Assembly (NCBI RefSeq): GCF_900187265.1 | Contig: NZ_LT906450.1 | Location: forward strand, 4,703,444-4,767,443 | Source of the DNA: Rhodococcus rhodochrous | GTDB lineage: Bacteria > Actinomycetota > Actinomycetes > Mycobacteriales > Mycobacteriaceae | Direction: 5' to 3' | Length of the DNA stretch: 64,000 bases | Shown here: positions 3,369 to 59,679 of the stretch, piece by piece | Position numbering within the stretch: the first letter of the stretch is position 1 | Layout: the number at the start of each line of letters is the position of its first letter | Program-made: the position numbers and the translations under genes | The notes under the pieces: generated by a model | Databases searched by the model: none | What the model saw: only the letters and a program-made list of their open reading frames with translations | What the model was told of the DNA's origin: nothing

Positions 3369-3664
3369 GGCGTACCTCTCTTTCGATCGCTCGACGGGCG
3401 AGCGCGACCCCGGGTGGCTCGTGCGATGAAAACTATCCTCTCTTTTGAGGAGAATCAACCTTCGCGACGCGCCGCCCACAAGAGGGGGAGGCTCGTAGAT
3501 CTCATGCCTCCACCGGCAGCGTGGAGCGACAGCCGCTCCGCGCGCGAGCTTCCCACCAGCAGAAACGGGCCATTTCTCGCGGAACGTTGACTATCCGGCG
3601 CGGACGTGGAAATCTATCGATCAGAAATGAGAATGCAATTCTCTCGAACAGGGAGGAGGTTGAT
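3369..3664. promoter_or_regulatory. divergent promoter region between the 103-aa gene operon and the CMD-Rieske operon
   Basis: This 296-base non-coding stretch holds a possible leftward promoter, TTGATT, 17 bases, then TAGTTT (reverse strand, about 3427-3455). A half-operator ATTCTC overlaps its -35. At 3629-3643 lies a perfect copy of the island palindrome, ahead of the rightward operon. I see no ORF of its own here with a credible ribosome-binding site. Confidence 0.5.
3629..3643. promoter_or_regulatory. island operator, perfect copy (GAGAAT GCA ATTCTC)
   Basis: A perfect 6-3-6 inverted repeat. It ends 21 bases before the GTG of the CMD-family gene, so a bound protein would block transcription or entry to the ribosome-binding site. 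It shares its consensus with six other sites in this window. Confidence 0.7.
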
Positions 3665-4201
3665 GTGGCACTGCTATCCCCGCTGCCGGCGGAACTCTGG
3701 GACGAGGACGTCGACGCAGCACTGAAAGGTCTTATGCCCCGGCACATGAGGAATCCGGAGCAGGCCGGCACCGCGATGGCGACGCTCGTCCACCATCCGG
3801 AGTTGACCAAGGCCTTTCTCGGCTTCAGCGTGCATCTTCTGTTCCGATCCACACTCCCGGCCAGGCTGCGCGAACTCGTGATCCTGCGGGTCGCCGCACT
3901 GCACGACTGCTCGTACGAGCGGGAGCACCACATCGAGATCGCGCGCACCGAGGCCGGCCTCACGCCGGACGAGATCGCCGCGGCCGTCGACGGGTCGGCC
4001 GAGGATCCGTTCGAGCAGCGCCTGCTCGACTCCGTTCGGGAGTTGACCGAGACTTCGCGCCTGTCCGAGGAGACCTGGACAGCGCTCTCGGAGCATCTCA
4101 CCACCAAACAACTGATGGACCTCATCTTCACCGTGGGTGGCTACAGCCTGATGGCCATGGCCTACAACACCTTCGGTATCGAGTTCGAAGACGAAAGGTA
4201 G
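3665..4201 (+). CDS. carboxymuconolactone decarboxylase/AhpD-fold protein
   Basis: A 178-residue protein starting at a GTG that follows GGGAGGAGG by five bases (earlier starts have no such site). The core CSYEREHHIEIARTEAGLT (82-100) carries the CMD/AhpD helix with one Cys (82) and His88/His89, and LRELVILRVAAL precedes it. True AhpD has a CxxC pair, so peroxidase-type chemistry is less likely. Family members act as lactone decarboxylases or isomerase-like enzymes. It lies four bases ahead of the Rieske oxygenase gene and has an island operator just upstream, so it belongs to the catabolic regulon. The exact reaction is unknown. Confidence 0.9.
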   Translation: MALLSPLPAELWDEDVDAALKGLMPRHMRNPEQAGTAMATLVHHPELTKAFLGFSVHLLFRSTLPARLRELVILRVAALHDCSYEREHHIEIARTEAGLTPDEIAAAVDGSAEDPFEQRLLDSVRELTETSRLSEETWTALSEHLTTKQLMDLIFTVGGYSLMAMAYNTFGIEFEDER

Positions 4202-4205
4202 AACC

Positions 4206-5474
4206 TTGCCCCACTTCACCAAGCCGGCCGAGGGAAGCTGGACCGAGCACTATCCCGAACTCGGCACCGCACCCGTCGACTACACCGACTCCATCGATCC
4301 CGCCTTCTTCGAGGCGGAGCGCGAGGCGATCTTCAAGCGCACGTGGCTCTACATGGGTCGCGTCGAGCAGCTGCCGCGCGTCGGCAGCTACTTCACCAAG
4401 GAGATCCCGTCGGCCGGGCCCGGCACCTCGCTGGTCATCGTCAAGGGCAACGACGGCGTCATCCGCGCGTTCCACAACGTGTGCCGCCACCGCGGAAACA
4501 AGCTGGTGTGGAACGACTTCCCCAACGAGGAGACCGCCGGTAGCTGCAAGCAGTTCACCTGCAAGTACCACGCCTGGCGCTACAGCCTCGAGGGCGATCT
4601 GACCTTCGTGCAGCAGGAGGGCGAGTTCTTCGATCTCGACAAGAAGGACTTCGGACTCAAGGCGGTTCGCTGCGAGACGTGGGAAGGGTTCATCTACATC
4701 AACCTCGACGACGATGCGGCACCGCTCGTCGACTACCTCGGCGACTTCGCCAAGGGCCTCGAGGGCTACCCCTTCGACAAGATGACCGAGGTCTACAGCT
4801 ACCGCTCGGAGATCAACGCGAACTGGAAGCTGTTCATCGACGCGTTCGCCGAGTTCTACCACGCACCGATCCTGCACATGAAGCAGGCGGTCAAGGACGA
4901 GGCCGAGAAGCTCGCCGGCTACGGCTACGAGGCACTGCACTACGACATCAAGTCGCCGCACTCGATGATCTCCTCGTGGGGCGGCATGGCCCCGCCCAAG
5001 GACCTCAACATGGTCAAGCCCATCGAGCGCGTCCTGCGTTCGGGTCTGTTCGGTCCGTGGGACGTCCCGGACATCGAGGGCCTGGCCGAGGATCAGCTGC
5101 CGCCCGCGGTCAACCCCACCAAGTTCCACAGCTGGGGCCAGGACAGCTTCGAGTTCTTCCCGAACATGACGCTGCTCATCTGGAAGCCGGGCTGGTACCT
5201 CACCTACACCTACTGGCCCACCGCCGTCGACAAGCACATCTTCGAGACGAGCCTGTACTTCGTCCCGCCGAAGAACGCTCGCGACCGCCTCGCGCAGGAA
5301 CTCGCCGCGGTGACCTTCAAGGAGTACGCGCTCCAGGACGCGAACACCCTCGAAGCGACCCAGACCATGATCGGCACCCGCGCAGTGACCGATTTCCCGC
5401 TCAACGACCAGGAAATCCTCCTGCGCCACCTCCACAAGACCGTCGCCGATTACGTCAAGGAGTACCAGAAGTGA
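4206..5474 (+). CDS. Rieske non-heme iron oxygenase, catalytic (alpha) subunit
   Basis: 422 residues from a TTG start preceded by GAAAGG. The Rieske [2Fe-2S] ligands are Cys93/His95 and Cys119/His122 (CRH...CKYH). The catalytic iron site is in FAEFYHAPILH, with His219 and His224. The residue three before His219, normally the Asp that bridges the two metal sites, is Glu216, as in carnitine/betaine-type oxygenases. The family hydroxylates or dealkylates C-H bonds using O2 and a reductase. A likely reductase is encoded at 34149. Its stop overlaps the next gene (GTGA). The substrate is unknown; it could be the first attack on a ring or side chain. Confidence 0.95.
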   Translation: MPHFTKPAEGSWTEHYPELGTAPVDYTDSIDPAFFEAEREAIFKRTWLYMGRVEQLPRVGSYFTKEIPSAGPGTSLVIVKGNDGVIRAFHNVCRHRGNKLVWNDFPNEETAGSCKQFTCKYHAWRYSLEGDLTFVQQEGEFFDLDKKDFGLKAVRCETWEGFIYINLDDDAAPLVDYLGDFAKGLEGYPFDKMTEVYSYRSEINANWKLFIDAFAEFYHAPILHMKQAVKDEAEKLAGYGYEALHYDIKSPHSMISSWGGMAPPKDLNMVKPIERVLRSGLFGPWDVPDIEGLAEDQLPPAVNPTKFHSWGQDSFEFFPNMTLLIWKPGWYLTYTYWPTAVDKHIFETSLYFVPPKNARDRLAQELAAVTFKEYALQDANTLEATQTMIGTRAVTDFPLNDQEILLRHLHKTVADYVKEYQK

Positions 5475-5880: not shown

Positions 5881-6100
5881 CGTTTCTTCGGTTCCACGCC
5901 GTCCATATTTCAAGATCGAACACAGTTGGTCGATCGTCGTCACATGATCGATCACAAGTCCGATATGCACGAAAGATCCCCTCGCGCCGGACTTTCCGAC
6001 CCATGATTGGATGTGCGGGCGAGAAACGGCTTCGAGCGCGGGACGGCCGCGGGACGAGGCCGGACTCCGCAACAGCCCACCGCCTGCCCCGGGAGGAACC
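5877..6100. promoter_or_regulatory. promoter region of the P450 operon with an inverted repeat
   Basis: Together with the terminator this fills the gene-free 5798-6100 stretch. The palindrome TGATCGATCA (5945-5954) is the right arm of a larger imperfect inverted repeat (5926-5957). This is unlike the island palindrome, so the P450-ferredoxin pair may answer to a different regulator. No coding sequence is supported here. Confidence 0.4.
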
Positions 6101-7393
6101 ATGACCGACATCGAGACGAAGAACTTCTTCACCGATCCGGATCTCGTCGAGGACCCGTACCCCTATTACGACGCCCTGCGCGAGGGATGCCCGGTCAGGC
6201 GCGAACCCCACCACAACGTCATGATGGTCACCGGCTACGAGGAGGCGATCCAGGTCCTCAGCGACGAACAGACCTTCTCGTCGTGCATCTCGGTGACCGG
6301 TCCGTTCTCCGGCCTTCCGGCCTGCCCCGAGAGCGACGACATCACCGACTTCATCGAGGAGCACCGCCCCTCGCTGCCGATGAACGACCAGCTCCCCACC
6401 ATGGATCCCCCGCAGCACACCGACCATCGCGGCCTGCTGATGCGGCTCATCACTCCCAAGCGCCTCAAGGAGAACGAGGCCTTCATCGAGCGCATCGCCG
6501 ATCGCCTCCTCGACGACCTGCTCGCCCGGGGCGAGGGCGACTACATCACCGGCTTCGCCGCGCCGTTCGCGATGCTCGTCATCGCCGACCTGCTGGGCGT
6601 GCCGGAGAGCGACCACCAGGAGTTCATCGAAGGCCTGAACATCCAGGTGGAGAAGGGGTTCTCGCTCGGCAGCACCGAAGGCGAAGCACTGAAGCTCAAC
6701 CCCCTCGAGTTCCTCTACAAGAAGTTCGGCCAGTACATCGAGGACCGCCGCGCGAACCCCACCGACGACGTGCTGACGGGCCTCGCCACCGCGACCTTCC
6801 CCGACGGCACCCTGCCGCCCGTCGACGACGTCCTGCGCATCGCCGCGAACGTGTTCTCCGCCGGCCAGGAGACCACCGTGCGTCTGCTGAGCTCTGCGCT
6901 GCGGATCATCGCCGAGCAGCCCGAACTCCAGAAGACCCTGCGCAGCGAGCCCGACCGCATCCCGAACTTCATCGAGGAGACGCTGCGTTTCGAGAGCCCC
7001 ATCAAGGGCGACTTCCGGCTCGCGAAGACCCCCACCACCATCGGCGGGGTCGACGTCTCGGCCGGCACCATCATGATGCTGGTCAACGGTGCCGCCAACC
7101 GCGACCCGCGTCAGTTCTCCGATCCGAACGACTTCGACATCGACCGCCGCAACGCCCGCACCCACATCGCGTTCGGTCGTGGCGTGCACTCGTGCCCCGG
7201 CGCCCCGCTCGCCCGCACCGAGGGGCGCGTGGGCATCCAACGTCTGCTCGAGCGCACCAGCGAGATCCGGATCTCCGAGAAGGTGCACGGCCCCGAGGAC
7301 GACCGGAAGTTCGGCTACCTGCCGACCTTCATCCTGCGCGGCCTGCTCGCCCTGCACCTCGAGTACGCGCCGGCGGAAGGTGAGTCGAAGTGA
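6101..7393 (+). CDS. cytochrome P450
   Basis: 430 residues from an ATG preceded by GGGAGGA. It carries the I-helix oxygen motif AGQETT (254-259), the ExxR pair E293/R296, and the heme loop FGRGVHSCPG with the ligand Cys365. It is soluble, with no membrane anchor, as in bacterial class I P450s. The stop overlaps the GTG of a small ferredoxin gene, its probable electron donor. It probably hydroxylates a hydrophobic pathway intermediate; the CYP family cannot be assigned by eye. Confidence 0.95.
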   Translation: MTDIETKNFFTDPDLVEDPYPYYDALREGCPVRREPHHNVMMVTGYEEAIQVLSDEQTFSSCISVTGPFSGLPACPESDDITDFIEEHRPSLPMNDQLPTMDPPQHTDHRGLLMRLITPKRLKENEAFIERIADRLLDDLLARGEGDYITGFAAPFAMLVIADLLGVPESDHQEFIEGLNIQVEKGFSLGSTEGEALKLNPLEFLYKKFGQYIEDRRANPTDDVLTGLATATFPDGTLPPVDDVLRIAANVFSAGQETTVRLLSSALRIIAEQPELQKTLRSEPDRIPNFIEETLRFESPIKGDFRLAKTPTTIGGVDVSAGTIMMLVNGAANRDPRQFSDPNDFDIDRRNARTHIAFGRGVHSCPGAPLARTEGRVGIQRLLERTSEIRISEKVHGPEDDRKFGYLPTFILRGLLALHLEYAPAEGESK

Positions 7394-7578
7394 AGGTCTT
7401 CGTCGACGACGACGCCTGTCGCGGACACGGAGTCTGCCTCGCCGCCTGCCCGGAGGTCTTCGACCTGAGCGACGGCGGGTACGCGGTCACGCTCGTCTCC
7501 GAGGTCCCGGCCGAGCACGAGGAATCCGTGCGGGAGGCCGCAGCGGGTTGTCCCGAAAGGGCGATCCGGCTCGACTGA
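7390..7578 (+). CDS. small [3Fe-4S]-type ferredoxin, P450 partner
   Basis: 62 residues; the GTG overlaps the P450 stop. The ligand pattern Cys10-x2-His13-x2-Cys16 with a distal Cys54-Pro is that of single-cluster P450 ferredoxins, where a His replaces the second Cys. Cys20 is an extra residue. It transfers electrons from a ferredoxin reductase to the P450 made just before it. A strong hairpin follows the stop. Confidence 0.93.
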   Translation: MKVFVDDDACRGHGVCLAACPEVFDLSDGGYAVTLVSEVPAEHEESVREAAAGCPERAIRLD

Positions 7579-7599
7579 GTCACGATCGAAACCGAACAC

Positions 7600-7642
7600 G
7601 GGCGTCGGTCCGGACCGAAAGGTCCGGGCCGACGCCCTTTTT
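7600..7642 (+). terminator. intrinsic terminator after the P450-ferredoxin operon
   Basis: GGGCGTCGG (7600-7608) pairs with CCGACGCCC (7629-7637) around an inner CCGGACC/GGTCCGG stem with a GAAA loop, then a run of T. A textbook intrinsic terminator. Confidence 0.9.
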
Positions 7643-7708
7643 CGTTTCTCCCATCGAGGGTCGATTGACGCCGTCCGGGGTTGTGTGAAAACCTCATAAT
7701 CAAGGTAT

Positions 7709-7723
7709 GAGAGTGACATTCTC
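7709..7723. promoter_or_regulatory. island operator (GAGAGT GAC ATTCTC)
   Basis: One mismatch from the 6-3-6 palindrome. It lies 33 bases before the chosen amidohydrolase start and directly abuts an upstream in-frame ATG (7724). Confidence 0.65.
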
Positions 7724-7756
7724 ATGATGTGTCGCTCTCCGATGAAAGGACGAGCG

Positions 7757-8992
7757 ATGCTGACCCTGAAGGCAGCCGGACTGCTCGACGTCGACACGGG
7801 CGAGATCGTCCGCCCGGGAATCATCCGCGTCGACGGCGACCGCATCGCCGGAGTGGGCGGAACCTACAGTGATAATTCGGGCGACACGCCCGAGGGTGAC
7901 GTCATCGACCTCGGCGACCTGATCCTCATGCCCGGCCTGATGGACATGGAGGTCAACCTCCTCATGGGTGGACGCGGCGAGAAGCCCGTCTACTCGACGG
8001 TCCAGGACGACCCGCCCCTGCGCATGCTGCGTGCCGTCGGAAACGCCCGCCGCACCCTGCGCGCGGGATTCACCACCGTCCGCAATCTCGGACTGTTCGT
8101 CAAGACCGGCGGATACCTCCTCGACGTGGCCCTCGGAACGGCCATCGACAAGGGCTGGGTGGACGGCCCGCGCGTCGTCCCCGCCGGTCACGCCATCACC
8201 CCCACCGGCGGACACCTCGATCCGACGATGTTCGCGGCGTTCGCGCCCGGCGTCCTCGACCTCACGATCGAGGAGGGCATCGCCAACGGCGTCGACGAGG
8301 TCCGCAAGGCGGTGCGCTACCAGATCAAGCACGGCGCCCAGCTCATCAAGGTGTGCGTCTCGGGCGGCGTCATGTCGATGACCGGATCCGCAGGTGCCCA
8401 GCACTATTCGGACGAAGAGCTGCGCGCGATCGTCGACGAGGCACATCGTCGCGGGATGAAGGTCGCCTCGCACACGCACGGCGCCGAAGCCGTGCGACAC
8501 GCGATCGAAGCCGGAATCGACTGCATCGAACACGGATTCCTCATCGACGACGACACCATCGACCTCATGGTCGAGCGCGGAACATGGCTCGTGCCCACCA
8601 CCCGTCTCGCCGACGCGATGGACACCTCCCACGCGCCGCCGGAGCTGCAGGCCAAGGCCGCCGAGATGTTCCCCAAGGCACGCACCTCGGTGCTCGCCGC
8701 ATACAAGGCCGGGGTGAAGATCGCGGTCGGCACCGACGCGCCGGCCATCCCCCACGGCAAGAACGCCGACGAGATCGTTGCCCTCGTCGACCGCGGAATC
8801 CCTCCCCTCGCGGTGATCCAGGCCGCCACGATCAATGCGGCAGAACTCATCGGCGTCGACGACCGCGGTCGCCTCGCCGAAGGTCTGCTCGCCGACATCA
8901 TCGCCGTCCCCGGCGATCCCACCGAAGACATCACCGTCACCCAGAACGTGCGGTTCGTGATGAAAGGCGGAAAGGTCTATGTCCACAACTGA
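7757..8992 (+). CDS. amidohydrolase-superfamily protein lacking the N-terminal HxH
   Basis: 411 residues. ATG 7757 is preceded by AAAGGACGAGCG; an in-frame ATG at 7724 abuts the operator and is less likely. The fold matches imidazolonepropionase/prolidase-like amidohydrolases: MPGLMDM, Lys198 in LIKVCVSGG (the carboxylated-Lys position), His239/His241, His259, and Asp327 in VGTDAPAIPHG. The first metal pair, normally DxHxH after PGL, reads Glu65-Val-Asn67. The metal site is therefore altered, either mononuclear or with different ligands. It may open a ring or hydrolyse a lactone or amide; this is inference. It heads an operon with a SnoaL protein and two ACADs. Confidence 0.92.
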   Translation: MLTLKAAGLLDVDTGEIVRPGIIRVDGDRIAGVGGTYSDNSGDTPEGDVIDLGDLILMPGLMDMEVNLLMGGRGEKPVYSTVQDDPPLRMLRAVGNARRTLRAGFTTVRNLGLFVKTGGYLLDVALGTAIDKGWVDGPRVVPAGHAITPTGGHLDPTMFAAFAPGVLDLTIEEGIANGVDEVRKAVRYQIKHGAQLIKVCVSGGVMSMTGSAGAQHYSDEELRAIVDEAHRRGMKVASHTHGAEAVRHAIEAGIDCIEHGFLIDDDTIDLMVERGTWLVPTTRLADAMDTSHAPPELQAKAAEMFPKARTSVLAAYKAGVKIAVGTDAPAIPHGKNADEIVALVDRGIPPLAVIQAATINAAELIGVDDRGRLAEGLLADIIAVPGDPTEDITVTQNVRFVMKGGKVYVHN

Positions 8993-9404
8993 CCGTTCGA
9001 TCACCGACGACCTCGTCGAGATCAACCAGCTGCTCGCCCGCTACGCGGTGAACATGACGAAGAACGACGTCGAAGGCGTCGTGGCGGTGTTCACCCCCGA
9101 CGGCACCTACAGCGCCTTCGGCGACGCATTCCCCCTCGATCGGTTCCCCGAGCTCGTCGCGGCCGCACCGAAGGGCCTGTTCATGACGGGCACGGCCCTC
9201 ATCGAGATCGACGGCGACACCGCGACCGGCACCCAGCCGCTGTGCTTCGTCGAGCATTCCACGCACGACATGCGCATCGGCTACTACAACGACACCTACG
9301 TCCGCACGGCCGAGGGCTGGCGTCTGCGCACCCGCGCGATGACCTTCATCCGCCGCAGCGGAACCCACGACTCCGGCATCCCCCACGCCTTCGAACCGGC
9401 ATGA
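8979..9404 (+). CDS. SnoaL-like/NTF2-fold protein
   Basis: 141 residues, overlapping the amidohydrolase end by 14 bases. The opening DDLVEINQLLARYAVNMTKND, then FTPDGTYSAFG, and the closing YVRTAEGWRLRTRAMTFIRR, are the hallmarks of the nuclear-transport-factor-2/SnoaL alpha+beta barrel. Members include isomerases, dehydratases and cyclases as well as proteins of unknown role. Its ATGA overlap with the next ACAD gene ties it to the pathway. No specific reaction can be assigned. Confidence 0.9.
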   Translation: MSTTDRSITDDLVEINQLLARYAVNMTKNDVEGVVAVFTPDGTYSAFGDAFPLDRFPELVAAAPKGLFMTGTALIEIDGDTATGTQPLCFVEHSTHDMRIGYYNDTYVRTAEGWRLRTRAMTFIRRSGTHDSGIPHAFEPA

Positions 9405-10489
9405 ACGTCACCGAGTTCAGGACCGCCGTCCGCACCTGGCTCGACGAGAACGATCTGACCCCCGGACCGGATCACTCGTTCGACGCACAGGTCGAACAAC
9501 TCGCCCGCGTGCGGCGGGACCTCTACGACGCGGGCTGGATGCGCTACGGCTGGCCCGAGGAGGTCGGCGGACTCGGCGGCGAGGCCGTCCTGCGTGCCGT
9601 GCTCGGCGAGGAGGTCGCGACCCGCGACCTCGCCGAGCCGGGCATCTACTCGATGATCGAGGTGCTCGCGCCCACCATGATCTCCTACGCGCGACCCGAA
9701 CTCGCCGCGGAGATGGTGCCGAAACTGCTCCGCGGCGAGGAACAGTGGTGCCAGGGCTTCTCGGAACCCGGCTCGGGCAGCGACCTCGCGTCGCTGTCCA
9801 CCCGGGCCGAGCAACGCGGCGACGAGTGGGTGATCAACGGGCAGAAGGTCTGGACGTCGCTCGCCCAGTTCGCCTCCCGCTGCGTGCTGCTCACCCGTAC
9901 CGCGCCGGGGCACAAGGGCATCACCGCCTTCTTCGTCGACATGGACACCCCGGGCATCACCGTCCGGCCGCTGCGCACGATGCACGGCGTCGACGAGTTC
10001 GCCGAGGTGTACTTCGACGACGTCGTCGTGCCGGCCGACCGCATGCTGGGCAATCCCGGCGACGGCTGGAAGCTCGCGATGGATCTGCTGCCGCACGAAC
10101 GGTCGACATGCTTCTGGCACCGCATCGCCTACCTGTTCACCCGGTTGGATCGCCTTGTGGACGAGACCGATTCGACGGCGGACGACGAACTCGGCGCGGC
10201 CTACCTCGCGCTGCACACCGTGCGGTGCCGGTCGCTCGCCACCCAGCAGCGACTCGCGTCGGGCGCCTCGCTCGGCCCCGAGACCTCCGTCGACAAGATC
10301 CTCCTCGCGACCGCCGAACAGCAGTTGTTCGACACCGCACGGGATCTGCTTCCCGGCGTGCTCGAACTGTCCGATACCGAATGGCGGACCGAATTCCTGT
10401 ATTCCCGTGCGGCGACGATCTACGGCGGCACCGCCGAGATCCAACGCAACATCGTCGCGCGCCGACTTCTCGATCTGGGGGCGGAGTGA
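9401..10489 (+). CDS. acyl-CoA dehydrogenase, alpha-type partner of a pair
   Basis: 362 residues, with the ATG overlapping the SnoaL stop (ATGA). FAD/substrate motifs are WCQGFSEPGSGSDLASL and INGQKVWTS, and the C-terminus reads IYGGTAEIQRNIVARRLLDLG. The Glu of the YEGT motif of human-type ACADs is Gly here, as in actinobacterial heteromeric ACADs. A second, shorter ACAD-like gene follows with a GTGA overlap. Such pairs form alpha2beta2 enzymes in steroid side-chain degradation, where they accept bulky ring-bearing acyl-CoAs. The same architecture is likely here. Confidence 0.94.
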   Translation: MNVTEFRTAVRTWLDENDLTPGPDHSFDAQVEQLARVRRDLYDAGWMRYGWPEEVGGLGGEAVLRAVLGEEVATRDLAEPGIYSMIEVLAPTMISYARPELAAEMVPKLLRGEEQWCQGFSEPGSGSDLASLSTRAEQRGDEWVINGQKVWTSLAQFASRCVLLTRTAPGHKGITAFFVDMDTPGITVRPLRTMHGVDEFAEVYFDDVVVPADRMLGNPGDGWKLAMDLLPHERSTCFWHRIAYLFTRLDRLVDETDSTADDELGAAYLALHTVRCRSLATQQRLASGASLGPETSVDKILLATAEQQLFDTARDLLPGVLELSDTEWRTEFLYSRAATIYGGTAEIQRNIVARRLLDLGAE

Positions 10490-11292
10490 CGACCTACAGC
10501 ACTGCACCGGCGCCCGATTCGGACCTCGGCCTGCTCGAGGACGCACTGCGCAAGACCATGGAGAGCACGACCGGTGCCACACTCGACGCGGCGCTGGTCG
10601 ATCTGGGCTGGCACGACATGCTCACCGAGATGCCCGACGACACGATCCCCATGGTGTTCCGACTGCTCGGCGAGACCGGCGCGCACGCCCCGGTGATCAA
10701 CGACGTCGTGCTCGTCGACGCGGGTCGTGAGGCCGGTGGGGTCGTACCCCTCCCCTACACCGGCCGACAGTGGATCGAGTGGGCACGCGAGGACCGGGAC
10801 ACCACCGCGCTCGACGCGGAACTGCCGATCGCGACGGTCGGATCCGGTGATCCGGTGCCGGTCGCAGCGGCACGTCGTGCGCTCGGCTGGTGGCTGGTCG
10901 GAACGAGCCGAGCGATGCTCGACTCGGCCCGTACCCACGCTCTCGACCGCACGCAGTTCGGCAAGCCGATCGCCGGCTTCCAGGCGGTGCGGCACCGGCT
11001 CGCGGAGACGTACGTCGCCGTCGAGGGCGCGGAGGCCACCCTGCGTGCCGCCACCGACGAGCTCGGTTCCCTGCTCGCGAAGGCCGCCGCGGGTCGCGCG
11101 GCGATCATCGCGGCACGGCACTGCCAGCAGGTCCTCGGCGGTATCGGCTTCACCGCCGAGCACGACCTGCACCGACACATCAAACGGGCACTGGTGCTCG
11201 ACGGTCTGCTCGGCAGTTCACGGGAACTGACCCGCGAGGCCGGTGCCCTCATCCGCGCGGAGGGTTCGGCGCCGCGCCTGGTGCACCTCTGA
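10486..11292 (+). CDS. acyl-CoA dehydrogenase, short beta-type partner
   Basis: 268 residues from a GTG overlapping the previous stop. Only the C-terminal ACAD helical domain is well kept: DRTQFGKPIAGFQAVRHRLAE and then CQQVLGGIGFTAEHDLHRHIKRA. The N-terminal half is shortened and lacks the EPGAGSD motif. It fits the beta subunit of an alpha2beta2 ACAD, which contributes to FAD binding rather than acting alone. It ends the 7757-11292 operon; a bidirectional hairpin follows. Confidence 0.92.
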   Translation: MTTYSTAPAPDSDLGLLEDALRKTMESTTGATLDAALVDLGWHDMLTEMPDDTIPMVFRLLGETGAHAPVINDVVLVDAGREAGGVVPLPYTGRQWIEWAREDRDTTALDAELPIATVGSGDPVPVAAARRALGWWLVGTSRAMLDSARTHALDRTQFGKPIAGFQAVRHRLAETYVAVEGAEATLRAATDELGSLLAKAAAGRAAIIAARHCQQVLGGIGFTAEHDLHRHIKRALVLDGLLGSSRELTREAGALIRAEGSAPRLVHL

Positions 11293-15848: not shown

Positions 15849-16565
15849 ATGCGTCCCTACTCTCCGGTACAGTGCTCCTATGTCCACTCCACGCGACACA
15901 GGGCGATCCGGGCAGTGACGGGCGCCAGCGAAGAACCGGCCTGGAAGCAACGCGCAGTCGAGCGCTCCATCCGGACCGCCAAACTGCGCGCCGAGCAGCG
16001 CGTACAGCGCTTCCTCGACGCAGCGCAGGCGATCATCACGGAAAAGGGCAGCACCGACTTCACGGTCCAGGAGGTCGTCGACCGTTCGAAGCAGTCGCTT
16101 CGCAGCTTCTACCTGCAGTTCGACGGTAAGCACGAGCTGCTGCTCGCGCTCTTCGAAGATGCCCTGAGCCGCTCTGCCGATCAGATCCGTGCCGCTGCCG
16201 CCGGCGAGAAGGCCCCTCTCGACCAATTGCGCGTCGCGGTGGAACTGCTGTTCGAGTCGTCCCGGCCCGACCCGACGGCCCAGCGACCGCTGTTCACCGA
16301 CTTCGCGCCGCAGCTGCTGCTCACCCATCCTGCCGAGGTGAAGGTCGCGCATGCACCGATGCTCGCGCTGTTCACGGAGCTGATGGAGAAGGTCGACGCC
16401 GAGGGCAGCCTCCGCGAGGGGCTGAACCCGAAGCGGATGGCCGCCATGACGATGCAGACCGTGATGTTCATCGCTCAGTCGAGCGGAGGCGACGACAGCA
16501 CGACCCGTCCCATCACGGCCGACGAGGTCTGGAACTTCTGCTCGCAGGGATTCGCCGCCCGCTGA
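15849..16565 (+). CDS. TetR-family transcriptional regulator (candidate island regulator)
   Basis: Up to 238 residues. The helix-turn-helix is typical: RVQRFLDAAQAIITEKGSTD, FTVQEVVDRSKQSLRSFYLQF, then GKHELLLALFEDAL. The C-terminal ligand domain is unrelated to anything I can name. Three starts are possible: ATG 15849 (GGAAGGA ten bases upstream), ATG 15880 in another frame (12 codons, its stop overlapping GTG 15915), and GTG 15915 itself. All give an intact DNA-binding domain. Two palindromes lie just upstream. Position inside the island and next to the operator makes it the best candidate repressor of the regulon, to be relieved by a pathway acyl-CoA (inference). Confidence 0.9.
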   Translation: MRPYSPVQCSYVHSTRHRAIRAVTGASEEPAWKQRAVERSIRTAKLRAEQRVQRFLDAAQAIITEKGSTDFTVQEVVDRSKQSLRSFYLQFDGKHELLLALFEDALSRSADQIRAAAAGEKAPLDQLRVAVELLFESSRPDPTAQRPLFTDFAPQLLLTHPAEVKVAHAPMLALFTELMEKVDAEGSLREGLNPKRMAAMTMQTVMFIAQSSGGDDSTTRPITADEVWNFCSQGFAAR

Positions 16566-18622: not shown

Positions 18623-19504
18623 TCACGACTGTGCGGATACGGCCGCTCCGTCGACGAGTCGTGCGGCCGCCGAGTACGGATCGTCGCGACCCTCGGCGAC
18701 GGCCTCCGCCAGCGCCTCCAACTCCGCGTGGTTGCGCAGGAGGGTGTGTGCCAGCGACAGGATCTGACTGCGGGCCCGCGCCGTGCGGCGTTCTGCGGTG
18801 TCGGCCCGCTGGTGCGCCTCGATCGCGTCGACGAGGTCGTCGACACCCTGGCCGGTCGCGGCGACGAGCTCGAGGATCGGGACCTTCACGTCGCCGCGGA
18901 GGTCGCGCACCGTCTGATCGGCACCGTCGCGGTCGGCCTTGTTGACGACGACGAGATCGGCGACCTCGAGCAATCCGGCCTTGGCGGCCTGGACGGCGTC
19001 TCCCCCACCCGGATTGAGGATGACGACGGTGGGTTCGGCGACCGAGGCGATCTCGATCTCCGACTGACCCACGCCCACGGATTCGAGCAGGATCACGTCG
19101 TAACCCAAAGCTGCCAGCAATCGGATCGACGCAGGGACGGCGGCTGCGAGTCCGCCGAGATGTCCGCGGGAGGCCACCGACCGGACGAACACACCCGAAT
19201 CGCCGACGTGCGCGGCCATGCGGATGCGGTCGCCGAGCAGCGCACCGCCGCTGTAGGGGGACGACGGGTCGACGGCCAGCACCGCGACCCGCAGTCCCCG
19301 TTCGCGGTAGGCGGTGGTGAGCGCCCCGACTGTCGTGGACTTGCCGGCCCCGGGCGGGCCCGTGAATCCGACGACCCGCGCGCGGGCGGGTTCGAGCAGC
19401 GCGAGCACCTCGTCCCGGCGCGGTCCTTCGACGAGGGTCAGCAATCGACCCGCGGCACGCGGGGAGCCCCCGCGTGCCGCGTCGATCAGTTCACCGATGT
19501 TCAC
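18623..19504 (-). CDS. meaB: MeaB/ArgK-type GTPase, chaperone of a B12-dependent mutase
   Basis: 293 residues with Walker A GPPGAGKST (49-57), VDPSSPYSGGALLGDRIRM, ESVGVGQSE and the guanine motif NKAD. MeaB-type GTPases load and protect adenosylcobalamin in acyl-CoA mutases. The only mutase in the window is at 40999-42576, so they probably work together although encoded in separate operons of the island. It follows the thiolase gene after 13 bases in the ligase-thiolase-meaB operon. Confidence 0.93.
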   Translation of the reverse strand: MNIGELIDAARGGSPRAAGRLLTLVEGPRRDEVLALLEPARARVVGFTGPPGAGKSTTVGALTTAYRERGLRVAVLAVDPSSPYSGGALLGDRIRMAAHVGDSGVFVRSVASRGHLGGLAAAVPASIRLLAALGYDVILLESVGVGQSEIEIASVAEPTVVILNPGGGDAVQAAKAGLLEVADLVVVNKADRDGADQTVRDLRGDVKVPILELVAATGQGVDDLVDAIEAHQRADTAERRTARARSQILSLAHTLLRNHAELEALAEAVAEGRDDPYSAAARLVDGAAVSAQS

Positions 19505-26493: not shown

Positions 26494-27765
26494 ATGAAGA
26501 CCGAAGACATGGTGATGATCAGCATCGACGACCACGTCGTCGAACCCGCGGACATCTTCGAGAAGCACTTCCCCAAGAGCCTGATGGACCAGGCTCCCAA
26601 ACTCACCACCCATCCCCGCAATCCGAGGGTGCAGGCCTGGCAGTTCCAGGGCACCGTCGTCGGCAGCTCCGGCCTCAACGCCGTGGTCTCGTGGCCCAAG
26701 CACGAATGGGGCATGGACCCCACCGGGTACGCGGAGATGCGGCCCGCCGTCTACGACATGGATATGCGCGTGCGCGACATGGACGCCAACGGCACCCTCG
26801 CCGCGACACTGTTCGCCACCTTCCCCGGCTTCGCCGGCACCCACCTGGCGAGCCTGCCCGACAAGAAGCTCTCCCTCGCCGCGTGCAGGGCTTTCAACGA
26901 CTGGGTCGTCGGTGAGGTCCCGGACGCACACCCGGGCCGGTTCATACCGATCGGCATCATCCCCTTCTTCGATGCGGACGAATCCGTTGCCGAGGTTCAC
27001 CGGATCGCAGCCATGGGATGTCGCTCGATCAGCATCCCCGAAACTCCCTACGGTGTCGGGGAAGGGTTCCCCGACTTCAAGTCCGGCTACTGGGACCCGA
27101 TCTTCAAGGCGTGCGTCGAACACAACATCGTGCTGTCCCTGCACATCGGAGGCGGCATCAACCTGGTCAAGCGGCCCGAGGGATTCGACATCGACAACAT
27201 GCTGATGCTCACGCCGCTCATCTCGACAATCGCGGCCACCGACATGATGCTCAGCGGCGCGTTCAAGAAGTTCCCCGACCTCAAGGTCGCGATGAGTGAG
27301 GGCGGCGTCGGATGGGTGGCGCCGTGGCTGGACCGCCTCGACCGGCACATCGTCAACCAGTCCTGGACCGGAACGAGCTTTCTTCCCGACGGGATGAGCC
27401 CGACCGACGTGTGGCGCAAGAACTTCCTCGCCTGCTACATCACCGAACCCAGCGGACTGAACAACCGTCACCGGCTCGGCATCGACACCATCGCGTGGGA
27501 ATGCGACTACCCGCACTCGGATTCCACTTGGCCGCACTCACCCGAGATCCTGAAGAGCGCGCTGGACGCCGCTCGGTGCACCGACGAAGAGATCGACAAG
27601 ATCACCTTCGCCAACGCCGCGCGGTTCTTCGACTGGGATCCGTTCGCGCACACCCTGCGTGAGCAGGCCACCGTCGGCGCGCTGCGGGCACGCGCCACCG
27701 ATGTGGACATCAGCGAGACCTCCAAGGAGGAGTACCGCCGCCGCTACGAGCTCACCCACTCCTGA
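26494..27765 (+). CDS. amidohydrolase-2 (ACMSD/gamma-resorcylate decarboxylase-like) metal-dependent hydrolase
   Basis: 423 residues. The N-terminal ISIDDHVVEPADIF replaces the classical DxHxH with a DDHxxEP motif that is usual in this actinobacterial subgroup. LSLHIGGGIN supplies a metal His, and WECDYPHSDSTWPHS the catalytic Asp. Relatives decarboxylate or hydrolyse ring-derived acids. It lies in an operon with a P450, an SDR and a small alpha+beta protein, so it may act on the P450 product. The specific reaction is unknown. Confidence 0.92.
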   Translation: MKTEDMVMISIDDHVVEPADIFEKHFPKSLMDQAPKLTTHPRNPRVQAWQFQGTVVGSSGLNAVVSWPKHEWGMDPTGYAEMRPAVYDMDMRVRDMDANGTLAATLFATFPGFAGTHLASLPDKKLSLAACRAFNDWVVGEVPDAHPGRFIPIGIIPFFDADESVAEVHRIAAMGCRSISIPETPYGVGEGFPDFKSGYWDPIFKACVEHNIVLSLHIGGGINLVKRPEGFDIDNMLMLTPLISTIAATDMMLSGAFKKFPDLKVAMSEGGVGWVAPWLDRLDRHIVNQSWTGTSFLPDGMSPTDVWRKNFLACYITEPSGLNNRHRLGIDTIAWECDYPHSDSTWPHSPEILKSALDAARCTDEEIDKITFANAARFFDWDPFAHTLREQATVGALRARATDVDISETSKEEYRRRYELTHS

Positions 27766-34043: not shown

Positions 34044-34096
34044 GGTGCTCTCTCGCGTCGCAGCAATACCGGTCGAGAGGTCTTGCTCTCCTGAAT

Positions 34097-34111
34097 GAGA
34101 ATAGTACTCTC
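34097..34111. promoter_or_regulatory. island operator (GAGAAT AGT ACTCTC)
   Basis: One mismatch from the palindrome. It sits between the divergent ligase operon and the Rieske-type reductase gene, 54 and 38 bases from their starts. On the reverse strand TACTAT, a possible -10, overlaps it. Confidence 0.65.
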
Positions 34112-34148
34112 GTTCTTGCAGAACATTGATACCAGGAGGAGACGGTCC

Positions 34149-35168
34149 ATGGCGAGACCACCTTTGTTTCAACGCGCGACCGTGACCCGGATCGTGAAGG
34201 AGACCGACGACGCCCGCACCTATGTGCTCGCTCCCCTCGACGGGCCCTTCACCTACAAGTCAGGGCAGTTCTGCACCTTCAAGGTGAAGGTCGACGGCAC
34301 CGATCTGTATCGCTCGTACTCGATGTCGAGCGCGCCCGAGACCGACACCGAGATGATGACCACCGTCAAGCGGGTCACCGGCGGAGCCGTCTCGAACTGG
34401 CTGCACGACAACATCGCGGAAGGCGACGAGGTCGAGATCACCCGACCCGCAGGCACTTTCCTTCTCCGCGACGCAGCCGGTCCGGTGCTCGGCTTCGCCG
34501 GCGGAAGCGGCATCACGCCGATCCTGTCGCTCGCCAAGAGCGCACTCGCGACGACCGACCGGCCGGTGCGCCTGCTGATCGCCGACCGCGACCGCGCGTC
34601 CGCGATCTTCGCGAGCCTCACCGACGAACTCGCCGACCGGTACGCAGGTCGCCTCGAGGTAGTGCGGCACTTCGACGACGAGAGCGGACTGCTCACTCCC
34701 GACGCCGTGCGCGCCTTCGTCGGATCCGACGGCGGCGCCGACAGCTACCTGTGCGGCCCGGAAGCGTTCATGGACATGGTCGAGGCCGCGCTCCCCGGCC
34801 CCGGCAACATCTACAGCGAACGGTTCGGCAGCGCAGCCGAACCCATCAAGGCCGAGGACGCCCAGGAGGCGGAGTCCGCCCCGAGCGGGGAGGTGAGGGG
34901 CACCGTCTCGATCCGCCTCGGCAACCAGCGCGTCTCCGTGCCCCGGCACGCCGGTGAGACACTGCTCGAGAGCGCGCGTCGCGCGGGCCTGGCGCCGCCG
35001 TTCTCGTGCGAGGCCGGCAACTGCGCGACCTGCATCGCGAAGATCACCCACGGCAGCGCGACGATGCGCGTCAACGACGCATTGTCCGAGGAGGAGATCG
35101 CCGACGGCTACATCCTCACCTGCCAGGGCGTGCCCGACAGCGAGGACATCAAGGTCAAGTACGTCTGA
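34149..35168 (+). CDS. FAD/[2Fe-2S] oxygenase reductase (KshB-like)
   Basis: 339 residues; AGGAGGAGAC precedes the ATG. The FNR-like half has RSYS (55-58, FAD binding) and GGSGITP (118-124, NAD(P)H binding) with LCGPEAF near 201. The C-terminal plant-type ferredoxin domain has Cys287-x4-Cys292-x2-Cys295 and Cys325. This order and length match KshB-type reductases, which power Rieske monooxygenases such as 3-ketosteroid 9alpha-hydroxylase. It is the most likely electron donor for the Rieske protein at 4206, though 30 kb away; both genes carry the island operator. Confidence 0.95.
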   Translation: MARPPLFQRATVTRIVKETDDARTYVLAPLDGPFTYKSGQFCTFKVKVDGTDLYRSYSMSSAPETDTEMMTTVKRVTGGAVSNWLHDNIAEGDEVEITRPAGTFLLRDAAGPVLGFAGGSGITPILSLAKSALATTDRPVRLLIADRDRASAIFASLTDELADRYAGRLEVVRHFDDESGLLTPDAVRAFVGSDGGADSYLCGPEAFMDMVEAALPGPGNIYSERFGSAAEPIKAEDAQEAESAPSGEVRGTVSIRLGNQRVSVPRHAGETLLESARRAGLAPPFSCEAGNCATCIAKITHGSATMRVNDALSEEEIADGYILTCQGVPDSEDIKVKYV

Positions 35169-35220: not shown

Positions 35221-35793
35221 TCACTGGTAGGTCAGGGCGGCCGAATGCGCCACCCTGCGACCCACCTCGATCGGTGACGACGGCCGGCCGCGCAGGAAGC
35301 TCGCGAGGGTTCCGTTGTAGGCGGTGAGCACGTCGTCGGCGAGGTCCTGCGCGTTCGCCCCGGCCACCGGTTTCGCAAGGTGCAGGAGTCGCTCGGCGAG
35401 CAGGTCGCTGTCCGCCGCGAGCATCTCGCCGATCTCGTCGGTGGGTTCGGCGAACTCCGTCGCTGTCGCGAGGAAGGCGCACCAGCGGGCGGGTGATTCC
35501 GAATCGTCGCGGTACGCGGCGAGGGCGTCGAAGATGGCCAGCAGACGTCCGATGTCGTCGTCGGCATCGACCACGTGCCGGTCCCACACCGCGCGCCACT
35601 CCGCCAACCGGACCCGCAGCGCCTCGGCGACCAGGGATTCCTTGCTGCCGAAGTGCGTGTACAGGGACGCTGCCGAGACTTCGGCCCGGCGGAGCAGGTC
35701 GTCGACGGGTGTCGCCCGGATCCCGCGGTCGAAGAGCATCTCCTCGGCGGCCCGGAGCAGACGGGTGCGGGCAGCAGGACGAGCCGTGGACAT
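35221..35793 (-). CDS. TetR-family regulator of the adjacent MFS transporter
   Basis: 190 residues starting MSTARPAARTRLLRAAEEML. The helix-turn-helix reads GIRATPVDDLLRRAEVSAAS and LYTHFGSKESLVAEAL. The C-terminal ligand domain is of the small AcrR kind (FLATATEFAEPTDEIGEML). It is divergent from an MFS gene, and the shared gap has a 14-bp palindrome flanked by direct repeats. It probably represses itself and the transporter; the inducer is unknown. Confidence 0.92.
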   Translation of the reverse strand: MSTARPAARTRLLRAAEEMLFDRGIRATPVDDLLRRAEVSAASLYTHFGSKESLVAEALRVRLAEWRAVWDRHVVDADDDIGRLLAIFDALAAYRDDSESPARWCAFLATATEFAEPTDEIGEMLAADSDLLAERLLHLAKPVAGANAQDLADDVLTAYNGTLASFLRGRPSSPIEVGRRVAHSAALTYQ

Positions 35794-35802
35794 GACCACA
35801 CT

Positions 35803-35855
35803 GTAACGCTCGTTCTTCTGAAACGATCGTTTCGGAGTAGAGTAACGGTCGTTCT
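35803..35855. promoter_or_regulatory. TetR/MFS operator: 14-bp palindrome between two direct repeats
   Basis: GAAACGATCGTTTC (35820-35833) is a perfect palindrome. On each side lies GTAACGSTCGTTCT (35803-35816 and 35842-35855), a repeat spaced 39 bases. This fits one or two TetR dimers over the divergent promoters. Confidence 0.6.
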
Positions 35856-35881
35856 GGTCTTCGATCCGTTCGGGGGACGCG

Positions 35882-37024
35882 ATGCATCCACTCGTCATCG
35901 CCGGCACAGCTCTGATCGCGACCACCTACGGGCTGGCGCGGTTCGGCTACGGACTCTTCCTGCCCCAGTTCACCGACTCGTTCGGGATGGGCTCGACGGT
36001 CGCCGGTGCCGTCCAGGCCGGCAGTTTCCTCTCGTACTGTCTCGCGGCGATCGTCGCGTCGAGGACGAGCGGACGCCCACGTCTCGTCGTGGCCTGCGCC
36101 GGAGCCACGGCGGCGATCGGTGCGCTGGGGGTGGCGGCGTCGACGCACACGATCGTCTTCGCGCTGAGCGTGATTGTCGCCGGAGCCGGGGCCGGTTTCG
36201 CCACTCCCGGGCTGGTGACGCTCGTCGAACGCAATGTCGCTCCCGATCGGCAGGAGAACGCGCAGACGATCGTCAATTCGGGAACGGGGGTGGGACTCGT
36301 CGCCGCCGGAGCTCTGGTGTTCGCCACCGCAGGCCAGTGGCGTGTGGGATGGGTCGTCATCGCGATCCTCACCGCCGGGGTCGCTTTCACCGTCCTCCGC
36401 ACCGACCGACGTTCCGACGATCGACGGGATCGTTCACACACCACGCCTGTGCGGATCGGCGAACTGTCCCCGCTGATCCGTCCCCTCCTCGCCGCAGCAC
36501 TGGCCGGTGCGTCGAGCGCGGCGATCTGGACGTTCGGCCGGTCCGTCATGAGCGACGGCACCGGCGGGGAGACCTACTCGGTGCTCGCGTGGATGGTCCT
36601 GGGCGCCTTCGGGGTGCTGGGGGCGACCGCGGGCCGGATCGTGCAGACCTGGAACCTGCCGGTCGCGTGGACGTTCACCACCACCGCCATGTCGGTGGCC
36701 ACCGTTCTGCTGGGGTTGCTGCCCGGAACACCGATCCCCGCCTACCTCTCCGTCGCCTTGTTCGGCGCGAGCTACATCGCGATGAGCGGGGTGCTCATCG
36801 TGTGGGCCGTGCGGTCGGTCGCCGAACGCGCAGCCGAGGGCACCGTGGCGTTGTTCATCGCCCTGGCCGTGGGCCAGGCCGCCGGATCGGTCGTGTTCGG
36901 AGCCCTGCTGGGTTCGACGTCGACCGCGACCGCCTTCGTGGTGGCGGGCATCGTCGGTCTCCTCGCGGTGGCGCCGGCGGTATCGCTCCCCCGGTCCCGC
37001 ACTCTCACGCCTGTCGGTCGGTGA
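35882..37024 (+). CDS. MFS transporter, YbfB/YjiJ-like
   Basis: 380 residues with about twelve hydrophobic segments. The opening YGLARFGYGLFLPQF and the later GSGITS-like NSGTGVGLVAAG resemble the YbfB/YjiJ family of MFS carriers. GGGGGAC precedes the ATG. The substrate is unknown; efflux is the commonest role of a TetR-controlled MFS carrier. Its 3' end overlaps the convergent lipoprotein gene by 20 bases, so no terminator separates them. Confidence 0.92.
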   Translation: MHPLVIAGTALIATTYGLARFGYGLFLPQFTDSFGMGSTVAGAVQAGSFLSYCLAAIVASRTSGRPRLVVACAGATAAIGALGVAASTHTIVFALSVIVAGAGAGFATPGLVTLVERNVAPDRQENAQTIVNSGTGVGLVAAGALVFATAGQWRVGWVVIAILTAGVAFTVLRTDRRSDDRRDRSHTTPVRIGELSPLIRPLLAAALAGASSAAIWTFGRSVMSDGTGGETYSVLAWMVLGAFGVLGATAGRIVQTWNLPVAWTFTTTAMSVATVLLGLLPGTPIPAYLSVALFGASYIAMSGVLIVWAVRSVAERAAEGTVALFIALAVGQAAGSVVFGALLGSTSTATAFVVAGIVGLLAVAPAVSLPRSRTLTPVGR

Positions 37025-40999: not shown

Positions 41000-42576
<1,577 letters not shown>

Positions 42577-42583
42577 GCCGGAT

Positions 42584-42612
42584 ACATTACTTGCAGAAAA
42601 AGAGAATGCCAA
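42584..42612 (-). promoter_or_regulatory. promoter of the mutase operon
   Basis: On the reverse strand TTGGCA (42612-42607), a 17-base spacer and TAATGT (42589-42584) make a good sigma-70-type promoter. Seven bases after the -10 is the GTG at 42576, so the mRNA is probably leaderless. Confidence 0.65.
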
Positions 42613-42616
42613 TATC
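42602..42616. promoter_or_regulatory. degenerate island operator (GAGAAT GCC AATATC)
   Basis: One perfect half-site and a second with two changes. It covers the -35 of the mutase promoter and lies 46 bases before the divergent SDR start. The weakest member of the operator set. Confidence 0.4.
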
Positions 42617-42662
42617 ATTGCGGAGAACAGAGCTGGACAATCGAAGGCGACCAGGGAGAACG

Positions 42663-59554: not shown

Positions 59555-59679
59555 AGTTGTACCTGCCTACAGTGCCGATTCCGGACAACGAACGGGCCTC
59601 AGACTAGTACACGTTCCAGTTTCGGTCGAGAACCAGGTTCTCGAAATAATATCATCGGATTTCCGGCTGCCGAAGCGCG

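Follow-up and report, generated by a model that had tools for sequence, protein, structure and literature searches.

Can an amidohydrolase that lacks the signature His-x-His motif of its metal site be a working enzyme, and if so, with how many metals and in which pathway? The question is raised by a gene of Rhodococcus rhodochrous that lies in the window analysed here, a stretch of 64,000 nucleotides from a genome of 5.27 Mb assembled as a single contig. Its reading frame (Table 1) translates without an internal stop, and the product would be 11 residues longer if translation began at an alternative ATG (7724). The original prediction had read Glu65-Val-Asn67 after PGLMDM in place of His-x-His (HxH), with Lys198, His239/241, His259 and Asp327 fitting a metal site; a check of the residue numbering (Pro59-Gly60-Leu61-Met62-Asp63-Met64-Glu65-Val66-Asn67; Lys198, His239, His241, His259, Asp327) confirms each of these positions. 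We refer to the product as the ExN protein.

Table 1. Features of the window discussed in the text (window coordinates; a point marks a feature without strand).
Feature	Position	Strand	Basis or remark
Carboxymuconolactone-decarboxylase-like protein (CMD)	3521..4201	+	Pfam
Rieske oxygenase alpha subunit (Rieske + Ring_hydroxyl_A)	4206..5474	+	Pfam, PDB matches, neighbourhood; conserved partner of the ExN gene
Orphan helical protein, 108 residues	5471..5797	+	GTG start overlapping the Rieske stop; without Pfam or NCBIfam match
Cytochrome P450, nearest solved structure CYP150A6	6011..7393	+	Pfam and PDB match; between orphan and ExN genes
Small 4Fe-4S-type ferredoxin	7390..7578	+	Pfam Fer4_15; overlaps the P450 stop
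Terminator-like hairpin, 17 pairs then TTTTT	7600..7637	+	Between ferredoxin and ExN genes
Palindromic operator-like site TGAGA-N7-TCTCA	7708..7724	.	Upstream of the ExN gene
ExN amidohydrolase, 411 aa	7757..8992	+	E65-V66-N67 replacing HxH; K198, H239, H259, D327 retained
SnoaL/NTF2-like protein	8979..9404	+	Pfam; start inside the 3' end of the ExN gene
Acyl-CoA dehydrogenase	9410..10489	+	Pfam
Acyl-CoA dehydrogenase C-terminal-domain protein	10480..11292	+	Nearest NCBIfam IpdE2, 69.5 bits (cut-off 450)
DitZ-like protein, probably an amidohydrolase-related dinuclear oxygenase	26494..27765	+	D12-x-H14, H217, E269, D338, H341, D343
FAD/NAD/2Fe-2S reductase	34095..35168	+	Pfam, NCBIfam

The ExN protein belongs to the Pfam family Amidohydro_1 (PF01979; 9e-46, 157 bits against a gathering cut-off of 25), and its score of 377 bits for the Xaa-Pro dipeptidase family NF051886 lies below the curated NCBI cut-off of 500. 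Its near full-length relatives in the PDB form the branch of prolidases, arginine carboxypeptidases and ochratoxin amidohydrolases (9kov, 9l36, 8ihq, 3be7, 3mtw, 2qs8 and 4c5y; E 1e-87 to 2e-43), and in all four of the 24 PDB matches that were aligned (9kov, 9l36, 8ihq and 8ihs) HxH stands opposite Glu65 and Asn67. Judged against subtype I of the amidohydrolases, the two-metal type with HxH, Lys, His, His and Asp, the protein departs from the definition at the motif after strand 1 and conforms to it at the four other ligands (K198, H239, H259 and D327, each present throughout its clade). The pattern in which the histidines of the alpha site are replaced and the histidines and aspartate of the beta site retained is that of one-metal hydrolases such as NagA and molinate hydrolase, a class defined by a way of working and not by sequence family. 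An AlphaFold model, built with 25 close homologues aligned, has a mean pLDDT of 64.6 and falls below 50 at residues 64-130 and 133-182; it thus gives no guide to the geometry of Glu65 or to where His145 lies with respect to the metals, and no fold search was based on it. Two other matches in the same genome are distant (37% identity): one carries His-x-His, and the other aligns only from about residue 214. Among the matches listed, the closest named relatives at the ExN gene are from Rhodococcus.

Whether the replacement is an accident of this copy was asked of its homologues. From 190 matches we removed those that aligned over less than some 340 residues of the query, which were split genes or short fragments of paralogues, a locus translated with a stop or an unread base (L180), and identical duplicates; this left 153 unique sequences and, with the target, 154. 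In the alignment of close homologues that had been proposed as a check, ExN proves to be fixed: all 132 unique sequences of the clade have Glu65, 128 have Asn67 and the remaining four have Asp at that position (128 ExN, 4 ExD), although these loci are often closely related and the counts are not of independent events. Lys198, His239, His259, Asp327, His145, His153 and His333 are each invariant in the clade (132/132), while His241 varies (121/132). The 22 outgroup relatives all have both motif histidines together with the Lys, His, His and Asp ligands, and none of these HxH sequences has the clade-specific His145 (132/132 against 0/22). A change from Asp110 to Asn110, considered as a clade-specific alteration of the second shell (all 22 outgroup sequences have Asp and all 56 clade representatives Asn), was rejected, since one of three HxH plasmid relatives, from Pseudoalteromonas, also has Asn110.

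The clade is sharply bounded. Pairwise identities fall into two groups: clade representatives clustered at 90% share at least 53% with one another and at most 47% with any outgroup sequence, and in a class sample of 394 genomes the matches at E <=1e-60 have either 58-100% or 39-42% identity. A tree was computed from 35 sequences of the clade and 22 of the outgroup with columns 64-68 blanked; in it the ExN sequences form a single clade with a support of 100/100 and one change of state, although the program warned of long branches, among them the one that joins clade and outgroup. The window gene compared with 11 relatives has dN/dS values of 0.036-0.159. In this sample the replacement is thus observed to be fixed and of single origin, with the other ligands retained and the gene under purifying selection.

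Among the matches listed, clade members come from Rhodococcus, Nocardia, Mycobacterium, Gordonia, Williamsia and Actinomadura, an undercount because the genome-contig scan covered the best 80 matches. Whole-genome searches covered the phylum of the window, Actinomycetota: of 396 genomes sampled from it, 13 carry a clade member (at least 58% identity) and 17 more match only at 38-44%, and a clade member is present in 13 of 61 relatives (one match at 40% was left out). A plasmid collection yielded no relative of the ExN protein with at least 60% identity at E <=1e-60. Some genomes hold more than one copy: at locus L183 (genome G702) an ExD and an ExN gene stand in tandem (8498 and 9787), and in G134, G449, G790, G833 and other genomes of the same family two clade paralogues on opposite strands are separated by about 30 kb.

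The pathway in which the ExN protein may act is indicated by its neighbours. For linkage counts, clade membership was set at identity above 50% and the motif of every instance was checked (116 ExN, 4 ExD, 17 HxH), and fractions use only instances with 5 kb of sequence on both sides (91 of 120 clade and 11 of 17 HxH instances). The genes for the Rieske oxygenase alpha subunit and for the orphan helical protein both lie within 5 kb of the ExN gene in 80 of the 91 clade instances; one has the orphan without a Rieske match, and ten have neither partner within that distance, although in one of these ten (L147) the Rieske-orphan pair is about 7 kb away. By comparison, neither gene occurs within 5 kb in any of the 11 HxH instances; the controls were the best-scoring non-clade matches from the phylum, class and relatives samples and the window's own genome (18 loci, of which L176, whose motif was not seen, was left out of the 17). 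In 74 of the 91 loci the orphan gene immediately precedes the ExN gene on the same strand; in the window the P450, ferredoxin and hairpin (6011-7637) separate the two. The SnoaL-like gene is found just downstream of the ExN gene in 78 of the best 80 loci. In the phylum sample the orphan is present in exactly the same 13 of 396 genomes as the clade, and among the relatives 12 of the 13 genomes with a clade member have it, the exception (G017) being a genome whose contig ends 10 bases away from the ExN gene.

Searches of Pfam and NCBIfam gave no family match for the orphan, and among 60 of its homologues only two chance-level Pfam matches appeared, in one homologue each. AlphaFold predicts five helices with a pLDDT of 90; structural searches with this model gave no convincing hit, the best being an E of 1.7 with Foldseek and, with VIA-align, a ribosomal protein matched over 63 residues at a Z of 5.6, and a profile search of the PDB reached an E of 0.16 at best; these negatives do not make the fold a new one. 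Weak homologues of the orphan are encoded on eight Pseudomonadota plasmids, and in each of the seven of these loci that were examined the orphan adjoins a relative of the Rieske alpha subunit (nine such pairs in all; in one locus the Rieske relative is split into two annotated genes), which argues that the orphan is primarily a partner of the Rieske oxygenase group. The examined stretches of the same seven loci contain no relative of the ExN protein at E <=1e-3, so the Rieske-orphan pair does not need the ExN protein everywhere. An acetamidase/formamidase gene adjoins the pair in L203 (NZ_CP039697.1, Novosphingobium) and L205 (NZ_CP090068.1, Acinetobacter), and the latter cluster, which also includes a styrene/indole monooxygenase gene, presumably resembles an indole-oxidation cluster.

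How, then, might a protein with this metal site work? Further relatives of the ExN protein are molinate hydrolase and phenylurea hydrolase B (4wgx, 4ub9 and 4whb; 3e-15 to 6e-13, with molinate hydrolase at 3e-15), for which we know of no linkage to a Rieske oxygenase and which have replaced one of the two motif histidines, whereas the ExN protein has replaced both. In molinate hydrolase, as described in PMC4407906 (this and the other papers cited by PMC number are drawn on here from partial text), an Asn stands in the alpha motif, one metal is held by the two beta-site histidines and the lysine is uncarboxylated; zinc had an occupancy of 0.4 in the crystal, and 1.1 metals per monomer were found in solution. 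The NagA enzymes of Escherichia coli and Vibrio cholerae have QxN for HxH and a single metal-binding motif (PMC6016474). NagA differs from the ExN protein in its bridging residue, which is Glu (PMC4407906) where the ExN protein has Lys198, and in its substrate, a sugar phosphate; it is absent from the PDB sequence matches of the ExN protein.

Since the ExN motif together with a complete set of beta-site residues fits the pattern of NagA and molinate hydrolase, the clade is best interpreted as a group of one-metal hydrolases. We hypothesize that the ancestor of the clade lost the alpha-metal site once, by the change from HxH to ExN, and retained the beta site, and that the ExN protein would be an amidohydrolase of the prolidase/ochratoxinase branch acting through the beta site alone. 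One divalent metal would be bound by His239 and His259, with Lys198 beside it, carboxylated or, as in molinate hydrolase, free; Asp327 would serve as general base, and Glu65 may pair with Lys198, balancing the charge of the absent alpha metal. The bond hydrolysed would be amide-, lactone- or ester-like. The enzyme would share a pathway with the Rieske oxygenase, the orphan and the SnoaL-like protein, followed by the acyl-CoA dehydrogenases, and its substrate would be the product of the Rieske enzyme. We give this explanation, as a whole and with the single loss included, a little better than an even chance, an estimate drawn from sequence and from analogy. Against it we count that His145 could be a replacement ligand in an alpha site that is rebuilt and not empty. 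Two experimental results for other enzymes also weigh against it: in a mycobacterial NagA the change from HxH to QxN lowered kcat/Km about 40-fold and reduced stability, with activity kept (a change to AxA abolished it), and both metals are held to be needed there for efficient catalysis (PMC6016474), while ochratoxinase, which follows the HxH, Lys, His, His, Asp scheme (the clade has ExN for HxH, and His145), binds two zinc ions, and its homologue ADH3 needs both metals according to mutagenesis (PMC11342369). So do the ten of 91 loci without the partner genes and the one without a Rieske match, and the clade genes found in pieces in G005, a 75%-complete draft of about 950 contigs; these splits are likely draft errors, decay there being less probable.

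The alternative of a rebuilt alpha site, in which Glu65 (perhaps with Asn67 or His145), a carboxylated Lys198 and Asp327 would coordinate another metal of a harder kind, for example Fe or Mn, and so make the enzyme a two-metal hydrolase whose ligand set is new, agrees with the joint fixation of Glu65 and His145 in the clade and their absence from the HxH sequences, with Lys198 and Asp327 kept, and a carboxylate at the first strand-1 position is a metal ligand in AibH2 (D25-x-H27; PMC7782822). Glu and Asn at the motif closely resemble the Gln and Asn of one-metal NagA (PMC6016474), however, and the poor model does not put His145 near or far from the metals; we consider a rebuilt site unlikely, though worth keeping in view. 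Less probable again is a related scheme in which the alpha subunit, the orphan, the ExN protein and the SnoaL-like protein would form a new multi-part Rieske system of Actinomycetota, with a site rebuilt from Glu65, His145, Lys198 and Asp327 that performs or completes an oxidative and not a hydrolytic step.

Equally doubtful is a non-hydrolytic enzyme. The decarboxylases of PF04909, for example gamma-resorcylate decarboxylase, have a single-metal site of the kind that Glu65, His239 and Asp327 could form between them, and decarboxylation, hydration or isomerisation would suit a surrounding pathway that is CoA- and oxygenase-based and offers no clear amide substrate; the residues required are invariant in the clade. 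Such a reaction leaves the invariance of Lys198 and His259 (132/132) without a clear reason, and the ExN protein sits in the Amidohydro_1/prolidase branch and not in PF04909. A role of the ExN protein as partner of the Rieske oxygenase, non-catalytic or largely structural, has a precedent in AibH1, an amidohydrolase fold with one zinc that serves the oxygenase AibH2 (PMC7782822), and would agree with the tight linkage to the Rieske gene and the orphan; it seems improbable in that all retained catalytic residues are invariant, the general base Asp327 included, and the Rieske-orphan pair occurs without an ExN relative in the seven plasmid loci. That the window gene is a decayed paralogue of an ordinary HxH amidohydrolase, the outcome on which the original prediction would have fallen and one favoured only by the missing histidines and the split copies in G005, is refuted by the clade-wide fixation, the single 100/100 branch and the dN/dS of 0.04-0.16.

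The same prediction had paired the ExN protein with a second family member in the window, said also to lack HxH, and had proposed both as non-standard amidohydrolases for opening rings or lactones. The letters IDDHVVEP of this second protein were read correctly, but nothing has been lost there. Its PDB matches are 8uyr 'DitZ' (7e-293, nearly identical), PtmU3 (5e-32), 6m1w_B (3e-12), which we take to be AibH2 from its length of 378, and SfbO (8sm6; 8e-12). In AibH2 the ligands are D25, H27, H211, E265, D337 and H340, with D342, whose PtmU3 counterpart is E313, in the second shell (PMC7782822), and such proteins have been named amidohydrolase-related dinuclear oxygenases (PMC10811679). The residues of the second protein align with PtmU3 and all seven site residues of the AibH2/PtmU3 type are kept, so that it has both the features that mark this branch (D-x-H, His, Glu and DxxHx(D/E)) and the similarity to PtmU3, AibH2 and SfbO; D12-x-H14 is the ligand pair of the branch. 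Because of the DitZ match and the full set of oxygenase-site residues, the second protein is probably a DitZ-type monooxygenase and not a ring opener. The ExN protein differs from DitZ, PtmU3, AibH2 and SfbO in its Pfam family, its Lys-type site and its want of DxxHx(D/E) at Asp327. In 32 of the best 80 loci, mostly from Mycobacterium and its kin, the neighbourhood of the ExN gene includes a relative of the second protein with about 43% identity, and relatives on plasmids are annotated as amidohydrolase. The literature matches listed for 'DitZ' concerned other subjects, apparently a surname; the available text of PMC13063091 contains neither 'DitZ' nor 'amidohydrolase', and that of PMC10710418 does not contain 'amidohydrolase'.

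The ExN gene is also tied to its island by shared operator-like sites. Palindromes similar to the one upstream of it stand ahead of several gene groups of the island, at 3628 (before the CMD-Rieske group, where the true CMD start is probably near 3670, after the site), 15777, 16566, 22089, 24737 and 34096, with a variant at 59628. With at most one mismatch the window has 7 matches against 1.38 expected, a number reached in none of 100 shuffles, and a pattern made from six sites (without 24737) has 13 matches across the genome, with 7 inside the window, against one match for the reversed pattern, although this enrichment is partly built in as the pattern derives from the window itself. The linkage of the ExN, Rieske and orphan genes and the sharing of these sites are observed; either of two TetR-type proteins (15849-16565 and 35221-35925) may bind them. 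Terminator-like sites number three in 6.3 kb against 2.9 expected, the stem of the hairpin before the ExN gene being much longer than those of the other two.

The reductase is a candidate electron donor for the Rieske oxygenase, and the SnoaL-like protein is possibly a beta-like subunit of the oxygenase. The gene content of the island includes the Rieske oxygenase, P450s, the DitZ-like oxygenase, CoA ligases, enoyl-CoA hydratases, several acyl-CoA dehydrogenases, a thiolase and a reductase; IpdE2, the nearest family of one dehydrogenase-domain protein, is an enzyme of steroid catabolism. From this gene content the island looks like one for the oxidative catabolism of a bulky alicyclic compound, and the name DitZ, if 'Dit' is read in that sense, hints at a diterpenoid. 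A methylmalonyl-CoA-mutase-type protein (41002-42618, minus strand) and a MeaB-type GTPase (18626-19504, minus strand) lie in the same island about 21 kb apart.

Among the titles and abstract beginnings returned by a literature search we recognised no description of the ExN clade or of the Rieske-linked gene group; the metal-site variant is new, and the kind of enzyme is known. An apparently one-time, clade-wide change in a signature metal motif provides a natural test of metal number in amidohydrolases, and the neighbouring 'amidohydrolase' is suggested to be a DitZ-type monooxygenase. The tie to a Rieske oxygenase and a helical orphan points to an uncharacterised catabolic module in six genera, from Rhodococcus to Actinomadura.
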